The notes beneath the pieces are model-generated. The model searched no databases, was not told the DNA's origin, and worked only from the letters and a program-made list of their open reading frames with translations. Shown piece by piece: positions 17,249-36,913 of a DNA stretch of 64,000 bases; within the stretch, counting starts at the first letter, position 1, and every line of letters begins with the position of its first letter. Location: positions 3,420,001 to 3,484,000 of the forward strand of contig NC_019701.1 of NCBI RefSeq assembly GCF_000317065.1, given 5' to 3'. Position numbers and translations under genes: made by a program. The DNA is from Pseudanabaena sp. PCC 7367 (GTDB lineage: Bacteria > Cyanobacteriota > Cyanobacteriia > Pseudanabaenales > Pseudanabaenaceae).

Positions 17249-17667
17249 GCTCTGATCCTGTTGTTCAAGTTATTGTTTTGCGCTCTGGCAACAGTAACAG
17301 TAATTGAACCACTTTGTGATTATGTACCTCCACTAGGGTTAATTGGTAGTGGTATAGAAGTAAGGAGTTTTAGCAAATGACTCTTAAGTCGATGTGGATA
17401 TTTAACTATCTCCTAAATCCTTACTTGTTCAGCACCACCGATGATTAATTGAAGCTTAGCTCTCTTTTTTAAGCTCTTTCTCAGGCTTTCATGTTTAACT
17501 GATATCTGGCGAAATGGTTAGAGGTTAAACGCGATCGCACAATCCGTAGTTATTGGCGTTGCGTAAATCAATAGAATGATGCTGCTAAGACACAACAAAC
17601 GCAAACAATTTTAAACTTGTCATGACTATGCCGGGTTCAACCATTCATTCCCAAATTTAGCTTTTCT
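17249..17667. other. Divergent spacer carrying a MITE-like element
   Basis: The 419 bp between the TPMT-like gene (-) and pstC (+) contains the element at 17345-17439. The region between the element and pstC should hold the pst promoter. One Pho-box-like octamer, TTTAACCT on the minus strand (about 17521-17528), is present but has no correctly spaced second or third copy. Confidence 0.6.
17345..17439 (-). mobile_element. MITE-like element, copy 1 (95 bp)
   Basis: A non-coding element with imperfect terminal inverted repeats: GGTAGTGGTATAGAAGTAAG at the left and CTTACTTGTTCAGCACCACC at the right. On the minus strand its first 45 bases match the first 45 of the element at 35867-35979 with three mismatches. 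The interiors then diverge, and the far ends agree again. Length is 95 versus 113 bp. No exact target duplication remains; GGTTAATT on the left and a shifted ATTAATTG on the right are only similar. No transposase is encoded. Confidence 0.75.
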
Positions 17668-33827: not shown

Positions 33828-35663
33828 ATGGCGAAGAAATCAGATTCACCAGCCCTCAAGATTATTCCCTTGGGCGGATTGAAGGAAATTGGTAAGAATA
33901 CCTGGGTATTTGAAATCAACGATGAAATCATGCTCCTAGATGGAGGTCTAGGCTTCCCTGGTGATGGTATGCATGGGGTGAATATTGTGTTGCCCGATAT
34001 GACCTACCTGCGCCAAAATCGCCACAAGATCAAAGGCATGGTGGTGACCCACGGTCATGAAGACCATATCGGTGGGATCGCCTTCCATCTGCGCCAATTT
34101 GATATTCCAGTGATCTATGGCCCCAGACTGGGGATGGCCTTACTAGAAGGCAAACTCAGAGAAGCGGGGGTATTGAATCGCACTGAATTACGCACCGTTG
34201 GTCCCCGCGATGTGGTGCGGGTTGGCAATAACTTCTTTGTGGAGTTCATTCGCAATACCCACTCGATGGCTGATAGCTTTACCGTGGCGATCAATAGTCC
34301 GGCTGGTTTGGTAATTCATTCCGGTGATTTCAAGGTAGACCACACGCCGGTTGATGGCGAATTCTTTGATTTCCAGCGACTAGCAGAGCATGGTGAAAAG
34401 GGTGTGCTGTGTTTGATTAGTGATTCCACTAATGCCGAAGTGCCAGGACATACCCCATCGGAAAGAGCGGTAGCCCCTGGTTTGGAACGTGCGTTTGCCA
34501 GCGCCAAGGGACGTGTGTTTGTGACTACGTTTGCCTCTTCGGTGCATCGCCTGAATATTATTCTCGAATTGGCTGAGAAAATGGGTCGTGTGGTTGGCGT
34601 AGTCGGCCGATCGATGCTAAATGTGATCGCCCATGCCCGCAATCTAGGTTATGTCAAATGCCGCGATGAATTGTTGCAGCCGTTGCAGAATCTTAGGAAA
34701 TATCGGGATGATCAGATTCTGATTTTGACCACTGGTTCCCAGGGTGAATCGATGTCAGCGCTGACCCGCATGGCTGAAGGCAGACACCGCCAATTGCAAA
34801 TCCGCGAAGGTGATACGGTGGTATTTTCCGCCAATCCAATTCCTGGCAATGTAATTCCGGTGGTACGCACGGTTGATAAGCTGATGAACCTGGGTGCGAA
34901 TGTGATTTATGGTAAAGACAAGGGCATTCACGTTTCTGGACATGGCGCGCAGGAAGACCAAAAACTAATGCTCAGCCTGACCAGACCTAAGTTCTTCTTC
35001 CCTGCCCACGGTGAATATCGGATGTTGAGGAAACATGCCAGCATGGCAGAAGCGATGGGAGTTCCAGGCGAGAATATCGTTATTGCTGAGAATGGCGATG
35101 TGATTCAGGTCAGCCAGGATGGTATTGGTGTGGCTGATAAGGTGCCATCGGGAATCGAATTGGTAGATGCCTCCCGCGAAGGGGTGGTGGATGGCGAAGT
35201 GTTGCGCGATCGCCAGACCATTGCTGGTGATGGCATTATCACCGTTGCTGCTTCCATTAATTTGGAAGGCAAGTTGGTAACCAAACCAGACGTTCGCCTG
35301 AGTGGTGTAGTGCTGCCAATGGAAATGTCACGGTTGACCAATTTCATTATCGATGCGATCGATGAAACGCTCAGTAATCAATGGGCTAAGCATGCCCGTG
35401 ATTTGGGTGAGATTGAAGTAGATTGGACAGGACTGCGCTATCAAATTGAGCGCGATATTAATCGCAAGTTGCGATCGCAGATGCAAAGCCGCCCTATGCT
35501 GGTGGTGTTGCTGCAAACTCCTGAAGGTGAGGATGCAACCAGTAATGGTAAAAAATCCGGCAAGTCTAAATCGAGTGCTAAGAATGCCAAGGATGCCAAG
35601 GATGATAAAACAACTACGCCTGCGGCTGGCAAGCGCAAACGTGCTACTGCTTCTGTTTCCTAG
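33828..35663 (+). CDS. rnj: Ribonuclease J
   Basis: A 611-residue metallo-beta-lactamase/beta-CASP ribonuclease with endo- and 5'-exonuclease activity in mRNA decay and rRNA maturation. Zn-binding motif THGHEDHIGG (about residues 72-81), HSGDFKVD (about 164-171), and the beta-CASP segment with SGHG (about 368-371) and FFPAHGEYR (about 386-394) are present. The C-terminus after about residue 565 is a basic Lys/Ser/Ala tail with repeated Ala-Lys-Asp, probably disordered and RNA-interacting. I take ATG 33828; an upstream TTG at 33789 would add 13 unsupported residues. A candidate terminator follows. Confidence 0.95.
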   Translation: MAKKSDSPALKIIPLGGLKEIGKNTWVFEINDEIMLLDGGLGFPGDGMHGVNIVLPDMTYLRQNRHKIKGMVVTHGHEDHIGGIAFHLRQFDIPVIYGPRLGMALLEGKLREAGVLNRTELRTVGPRDVVRVGNNFFVEFIRNTHSMADSFTVAINSPAGLVIHSGDFKVDHTPVDGEFFDFQRLAEHGEKGVLCLISDSTNAEVPGHTPSERAVAPGLERAFASAKGRVFVTTFASSVHRLNIILELAEKMGRVVGVVGRSMLNVIAHARNLGYVKCRDELLQPLQNLRKYRDDQILILTTGSQGESMSALTRMAEGRHRQLQIREGDTVVFSANPIPGNVIPVVRTVDKLMNLGANVIYGKDKGIHVSGHGAQEDQKLMLSLTRPKFFFPAHGEYRMLRKHASMAEAMGVPGENIVIAENGDVIQVSQDGIGVADKVPSGIELVDASREGVVDGEVLRDRQTIAGDGIITVAASINLEGKLVTKPDVRLSGVVLPMEMSRLTNFIIDAIDETLSNQWAKHARDLGEIEVDWTGLRYQIERDINRKLRSQMQSRPMLVVLLQTPEGEDATSNGKKSGKSKSSAKNAKDAKDDKTTTPAAGKRKRATASVS

Positions 35664-35838: not shown

Positions 35839-35866
35839 ATTTGGTTCTAAATCTAAATCTAATTCT

Positions 35867-35979
35867 GGTAGTGCTGAACAAGTAAGGATCTAGGAGATAG
35901 TTGAATATCCATAACCCAAATAAGCTAAGCTCCGAATTTTAAATCGATTGCCAATTATCCTTACTACTGCATGACTACC
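35867..35979 (+). mobile_element. MITE-like element, copy 2 (113 bp) with 8-bp target duplication
   Basis: Terminal inverted repeats of about 23 bp: GGTAGTGCTGAACAAGTAAG at the left mirrors CTTACTACTGCATGACTACC at the right, perfect for the outer GGTAGT and for AGTAAGGAT. The flanks are exact 8-bp copies of CTAATTCT (35859-35866 and 35980-35987). Removing the element and one copy restores five consecutive hexamers (TCTAAA x2, TCTAAT, TCTAAA x2). It shares 42 of its first 45 bases with the inverted copy at 17345-17439. No open frame; mobilisation would need a transposase elsewhere. Confidence 0.85.
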
Positions 35980-36007
35980 CTAATTCTAAATCTAAAATCA
36001 TTCTGGC

Positions 36008-36913
36008 TTAAGTATCCCCAGGCTTTTCCTGCGTCTTGGCTGGTGGTGATTCAGTCTGGCTCTGGTGCTGATTCAGCTTGGCCAGAAATTCATTATCGTA
36101 GATCGCCTTTTCATATTCCTGTGCTTCAAACAGTTGCTCTGGTTTTAATCCCTTCGCTTTTGTGAAGTTGGTGAGCGATAAAAAAGAACCTTTTAAACTT
36201 GCACTACTAAAACTTGCGCCACCCAGATTCGCACCGCTTAGTTCGGCCTCCACGATCGCTGCCCCACTCAACTTCGCCTGTTTGATGCTGGCCACAAACA
36301 AATTTGCCTTAGTTAAATTCACGCGCCGCAAGTTAGCGCCATCCAGATTCGCCTCACTCAGATCAGCATTACTGAGATCGGCATTGCTCAAATCCGCACT
36401 ACTTAAATTAGCCCCAAATAGATTTGCCCCCCTCAGGCTAGCGCCACTCAAATTAGTGCCACTCAGGTTTGCTCGTCGTAGATCAGCCTTGTCAAGTTGA
36501 ATCTCGCGCAGATCGGCTTGATCGGCTGTCAATCCCGCCAAACTTACCTTGTCGCCATTGAGATCTTGTAATGCCATAATCCGGCCACCACTACCGCCTT
36601 GTCCTTGGGCAGAATTAATCACCTGCCAGGCTTCATAGTGCGATCGCTTTTTTTGGGCTGGAATGCCCACTGCAAACACAATTAACCCGGCTAAAATACT
36701 AATCGCCTCAATCTGGTCAAACAGCCTTGAATCGAGCCGTTTCAACAAAAATTGCTCAACGCCAGTGCCCTCGATCGAATCGATCGCGGCGATGATGCCC
36801 ATCAGTACCAGAAACACTGCCCCCCATTTAATAAATACTTGCCCAAAGGCACGTAGTTGTAATATCAGGCCGCCAAAGCGATCGTTAAATTGTTGATTTA
36901 ATTGCTTCCACAT
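36008..36913 (-). CDS. Pentapeptide-repeat protein with N-terminal membrane helices
   Basis: A 301-residue protein. Two hydrophobic segments lie near residues 28-50 and 65-85. From about residue 130 to 245 run some twenty A(D/N)LXX pentapeptides (LRRANLSGTNLSGASLRGAN and so on), which fold as a right-handed quadrilateral beta-helix. The C-terminal 40 residues are polar. Such membrane-anchored pentapeptide proteins are abundant in cyanobacteria; targets are mostly unknown. It is not a Qnr-type fluoroquinolone protector, which lacks membrane segments. Confidence 0.9.
   Translation of the reverse strand: MWKQLNQQFNDRFGGLILQLRAFGQVFIKWGAVFLVLMGIIAAIDSIEGTGVEQFLLKRLDSRLFDQIEAISILAGLIVFAVGIPAQKKRSHYEAWQVINSAQGQGGSGGRIMALQDLNGDKVSLAGLTADQADLREIQLDKADLRRANLSGTNLSGASLRGANLFGANLSSADLSNADLSNADLSEANLDGANLRRVNLTKANLFVASIKQAKLSGAAIVEAELSGANLGGASFSSASLKGSFLSLTNFTKAKGLKPEQLFEAQEYEKAIYDNEFLAKLNQHQSQTESPPAKTQEKPGDT

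Follow-up and report, generated by a model that had tools for sequence, protein, structure and literature searches.

What the segment at 35867-35979 of the window (the whole 64,000-nucleotide stretch of Pseudanabaena sp. PCC 7367 DNA analysed here) is, and how it came to lie within a tract of TCTAAA hexamers, is the question raised by this locus. The segment is placed in that tract between the 3' ends of two convergent genes, one ending at 35663 which, by eye from its sequence, we take to encode an RNase J-like protein, and the other a pentapeptide-repeat gene on the minus strand (36008-36913). Read directly from the sequence, it is 113 bp long and bounded on each side by an identical 8-mer, the whole of 35859-35987 running as CTAATTCT, then the element with GGTAGTGCTGAACAAGTAAGGAT as its first bases and ATCCTTACTACTGCATGACTACC as its last, then CTAATTCT again. 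Its 23-bp terminal inverted repeats are imperfect, and over 29 nt the inverted arms, flanks included, show 76% complementarity. Joining the flanks with one 8-mer removed gives TTCTAAATCTAAATCTAATTCTAAATCTAAAATC, that is five consecutive hexamers, the third TCTAAT and the others TCTAAA, just as the original prediction expected of a deletion of the element with one flanking copy; the length, imperfect repeats and exact 8-bp flanks it described hold to the base, and its statement that the element encodes nothing agrees with the lack of any ORF of at least 70 aa within it. The features concerned, including a relative of the element found elsewhere in the window, are:

17345-17439, minus strand: 95-bp relative of the MITE, its left half as in the MITE and its right half from a different repeat family whose ends are of like kind
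35846-35996, plus strand: TCTAAA/TCTAAT tract, split by the insertion into 35846-35866 and 35980-35996, as seen on rejoining the flanks
35859-35866, no strand: left 8-bp target-site duplication CTAATTCT, identical to 35980-35987
35867-35979, plus strand: 113-bp non-coding element, IS1-family MITE, with 27 full-length genomic copies 84-100% identical
35867-35889, plus strand: left terminal inverted repeat GGTAGTGCTGAACAAGTAAGGAT, 21 of 23 bases as in the left end of a 783-bp IS
35890-35950, plus strand: 61-bp interior (element positions 24-84), only short chance-level matches to the resident IS
35951-35979, plus strand: right end, 29 bp common to the IS (93% identity to the IS right end, E 3e-9)
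35957-35979, plus strand: right terminal inverted repeat, the last 23 bp of the IS-matching 29 bp
35980-35987, no strand: right 8-bp target-site duplication CTAATTCT, read directly

Since the insertion lies in a tract that is itself repetitive, the 8-bp flank at 35859 taken alone is weaker evidence than usual; repetitive flanks make an 8-bp repeat cheap, and the segment might then be a chance inverted repeat in a simple tract, or express a property of the tract itself. The multi-copy distribution refutes this and leaves it a negligible probability, since tens of dispersed copies carry independent 8-bp duplications at unrelated sites. BLAST gives about 30 dispersed matches to the element in its own genome, all on the 4.56-Mb contig. 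Full length is reached by 27 copies, 84-100% identical on oriented alignment (25 at 91-100%, and two only 85-88% identical), in a census by BLAST and by pattern searches that scored limited candidates and from which weak copies may be missing; the remaining matches are truncated or broken. One other copy is 100% identical to that in the window and several more stand at 99%, with their duplications intact. A strict end-pattern search of the genome returned 20 elements of the MITE size class and a control pattern returned none. Within the window the 23-bp end pattern occurs at four sites, against none expected in shuffled window DNA, these being both ends of the 113-bp element and both ends of the 95-bp element. 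The single-copy distribution that the original prediction named as counting against it is thus not what the genome holds. The 96 further genomes searched, 37 from the same family, gave no full copy of the MITE, only short matches, many covering its first 23 bp, as would be expected from IS ends.

Exact 8-bp flanking duplications bound 15 of the full-length copies and differ in sequence, and these differing perfect 8-mers settle the concern that the duplication in the window is a by-product of the hexamer tract. Of four further copies, one has a 7/8 match, one a match of 7 bp and two an 8-bp repeat displaced at the right end, the offset being one base or an 11-bp extension that two of the 27 full-length copies carry there. 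Taking MITE and IS copies together, 25 duplications average 82% A+T, against 53% for the window; the sequence is rich in GCGATCGC. With 27 full-length copies, most having 8-bp duplications of their own, and a resident IS with matching ends, the earlier reading of a MITE-like insertion with target duplication is borne out.

Some copies depart from this regular form. In copy L024 (G000:C2:1308717-1308829; near 1490-1612) the right end carries an 11-bp duplication and the flanking repeat is unusually long, about 15 bp (AGGATTAGAAATAAT) against the usual 8; copy L021 has a right-end extension like that of L024 but an ordinary 8-bp duplication. At G000:C2:3973383-3973553 (L003, L071) a full MITE adjoins, in the same orientation, a diverged 58-bp piece of a second copy, about 81% identical.

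The terminal repeats had at first been assigned to no named family, and a search was advised for a full-length IS with matching ends and 8-bp duplications. Such an IS is resident, and its ends and those of its relatives now allow the repeats to be named as of IS1-family type. It was recognised by extending those genomic matches in which only one end of the MITE was represented, all with the same 29-bp match, and is a 783-bp repeat in 13 copies (11 at 99-100% and two at 84%), three of which are identical to one another. Direct repeats of at least 8 bp lie at 8 of the 13, and the IS makes 8-bp duplications. It encodes two proteins, one of 103 aa with the InsA zinc ribbon and one of 133 aa with the IS1 transposase domain, the ORFs matching Pfam Zn_ribbon_InsA (1e-7) and DDE_Tnp_IS1 (4e-20) and NCBIfam transpos_IS1; against the NCBIfam full-protein cut-off of 100 bits the InsA half alone falls below at 82.5 and InsB passes at 107.5. 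Behind AAAAAAAAG (an A8G run) InsB follows in the −1 frame relative to InsA with no intervening stop, as IS1 itself is arranged, and frameshifting is predicted from the sequence. A length near 770 bp, GGT... ends, duplications of 8-9 bp and an InsA zinc ribbon with an IS1-type DDE transposase characterise the IS1 family, and the 783-bp element has them all. Similar GGTAGT-type ends occur in independent IS1 relatives that a protein search recovered from other, named genomes, mostly cyanobacterial, and among the 21 that could be delimited the duplications are of 8 bp in 18 and of 9 bp in three.

Certain IS copies bear traces of rearrangement. In an inverted full-length pair, G000:C2:1688917-1689698 (L084) and 1705199-1705981 (L075), the duplications GATTCATA and TATTTATT are swapped, each left flank being the other's right flank, which is the mark of recombination having inverted the roughly 16 kb that separate the pair. 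The copies G000:C2:3758193-3758975 (L078) and 4370747-4371529 (L079) share the 8-mer TATAGTTA, which stands on the left of one and on the right of the other, as if a rearrangement with a further copy had involved both.

In the same orientation the IS ends match those of the MITE at 91% over 23 bp and 93% over 29 bp. The genome holds a multi-copy element with IS1-type ends and 8-bp AT-rich duplications together with a resident IS having matching ends and duplications, and these marks of a MITE are seen here: a short non-coding element, terminal inverted repeats common to an autonomous one, and dispersed copies with target-site duplications. The element is very probably an IS1-family MITE of type I, a non-autonomous element that has the ends of a resident IS, and is moved in trans by the resident transposase. 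In the pathway proposed, −1 frameshifting on the resident IS would yield InsAB', which would bind the common 23-bp ends of the MITE in trans and would place it in AT-rich intergenic DNA via an 8-bp staggered cut, the window copy presumably having entered the run of TCTAAA hexamers that lies between the two genes' 3' ends.

Quite how the MITE arose is a separate issue. Between the ends its central 61 bp have no meaningful match to the 783-bp IS, and an interior foreign to the resident IS means that it was not made by simple internal deletion of that IS; the interior may derive from a lost relative or be other DNA that was captured. Those few end positions that differ from the IS are common to nearly all MITE copies, left-end positions 10-11 being GA in the MITE against AT in the IS (AA in its 84% copies). 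Given an interior not from the resident IS and ends differing at near-fixed positions, the true parent may be another IS1-family element, since lost. The same unrelated interior and the same GA at positions 10-11 would also fit the MITE having been moved by such a now-lost relative and not by the resident IS, with the present copies as fossils, but this seems unlikely when MITE copies 99-100% identical retain intact duplications and three IS copies are identical, near-identity of the copies on both sides pointing to recent activity of both elements. Mobilisation in trans by the resident IS1-type transposase is the preferred reading.

Whether the copies serve a function was addressed from their settings and their fold. 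None of the 30 copies analysed interrupts an ORF of at least 90 aa, and the inverted ends, through which the MITE is able to form a hairpin, fold better than shuffles (z −2.5), as might be seen were it a domesticated element selected as a terminator, RNA structure or regulatory site. Such avoidance of ORFs and such a fold are expected of any MITE, the 30 copies lie in varied settings (tandem for 12, divergent for 12, convergent for 5 and unassigned for 1, as judged from ORFs and not curated gene calls), and the MITE gave neither a terminator-like site nor an Rfam match, even at E 1, and the 29 pairs of its consensus fold hold no compensatory change, making domestication highly improbable. The copy in the window is most likely without a selected function at its site.

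The 95-bp element at 17345-17439 appears as a hybrid, with a left part of 43-49 bases that is for the most part 91-98% identical to the 113-bp MITE and a right part of 46 bases that has matches at six or more other genomic places (C2:3797502, 1665166, 426103, 3716926, 81974 and 4108585); no exact 8-bp duplication was seen by eye around it. Its composition points to a second family of MITEs whose ends are of the same kind and which would have recombined with the 113-bp family. A more general and rather doubtful proposal is that an IS1-family MITE lineage now active in trans swaps halves with this second family, recombination so yielding new hybrid MITEs.

The orthologous empty site was sought via the tail of the RNase J-like protein in 38 genomes of the family, where identity over that tail is only about 34-58% and no adjoining copy of the pentapeptide gene or of the intergenic DNA was found. 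The relatives searched include no second genome of the genus and the family locus is too diverged, and so the site was not recovered.

The kind of element is known, and the MITE itself is a clean but ordinary example of it; no paper on it was found in the open literature, which is no proof of absence. Its worth lies in being half of a clean IS1-family MITE/IS pair, here cyanobacterial, whose ends and duplications match; the pair can help in the annotation of such genomes and offers a small system in which to test mobilisation in trans by an IS1-type transposase. Like the IS1 family, of which E. coli IS1 and cyanobacterial members are examples, the MITE and its partner have GGT... ends of about 23 bp and duplications of 8-9 bp, and the partner has InsA and InsB with a predicted frameshift window, whereas the MITE is without genes and has only the ends in common with its partner. 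E. coli IS1 makes duplications of 8 or 9 bp, and a mini-IS1 with the ends alone transposes according to preliminary work mentioned in the same paper (PMC12428005). In Moraxella osloensis the ends of IS1-family elements are 24 bp long and begin with GGTGGT, and the insert flanked by these elements lies between 8-bp duplications (PMC6382973). Cyanobacteria commonly carry MITEs (PMC10969869, PMC3542288, PMC11448079). The 187-bp ISL3-linked MITE of Microcystis aeruginosa PCC 7806 is likewise short, non-coding, mostly intergenic and present in tens of copies with 8-bp duplications, but has ISL3 ends (GGCTCTTCG) (PMC11448079). The MITEs of Anabaena sp. 90, also short, non-coding, mostly intergenic and in tens of copies, differ in being unlinked to any IS of that genome (PMC3542288). 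ISHwa6 of Haloquadratum walsbyi, an IS1595-linked MITE of 165 bp in 7 copies, resembles the present element in its related IS family, 25-bp ends and 8-bp duplications, and differs in belonging to the IS1595 family and in having an archaeal host (PMC3852290).
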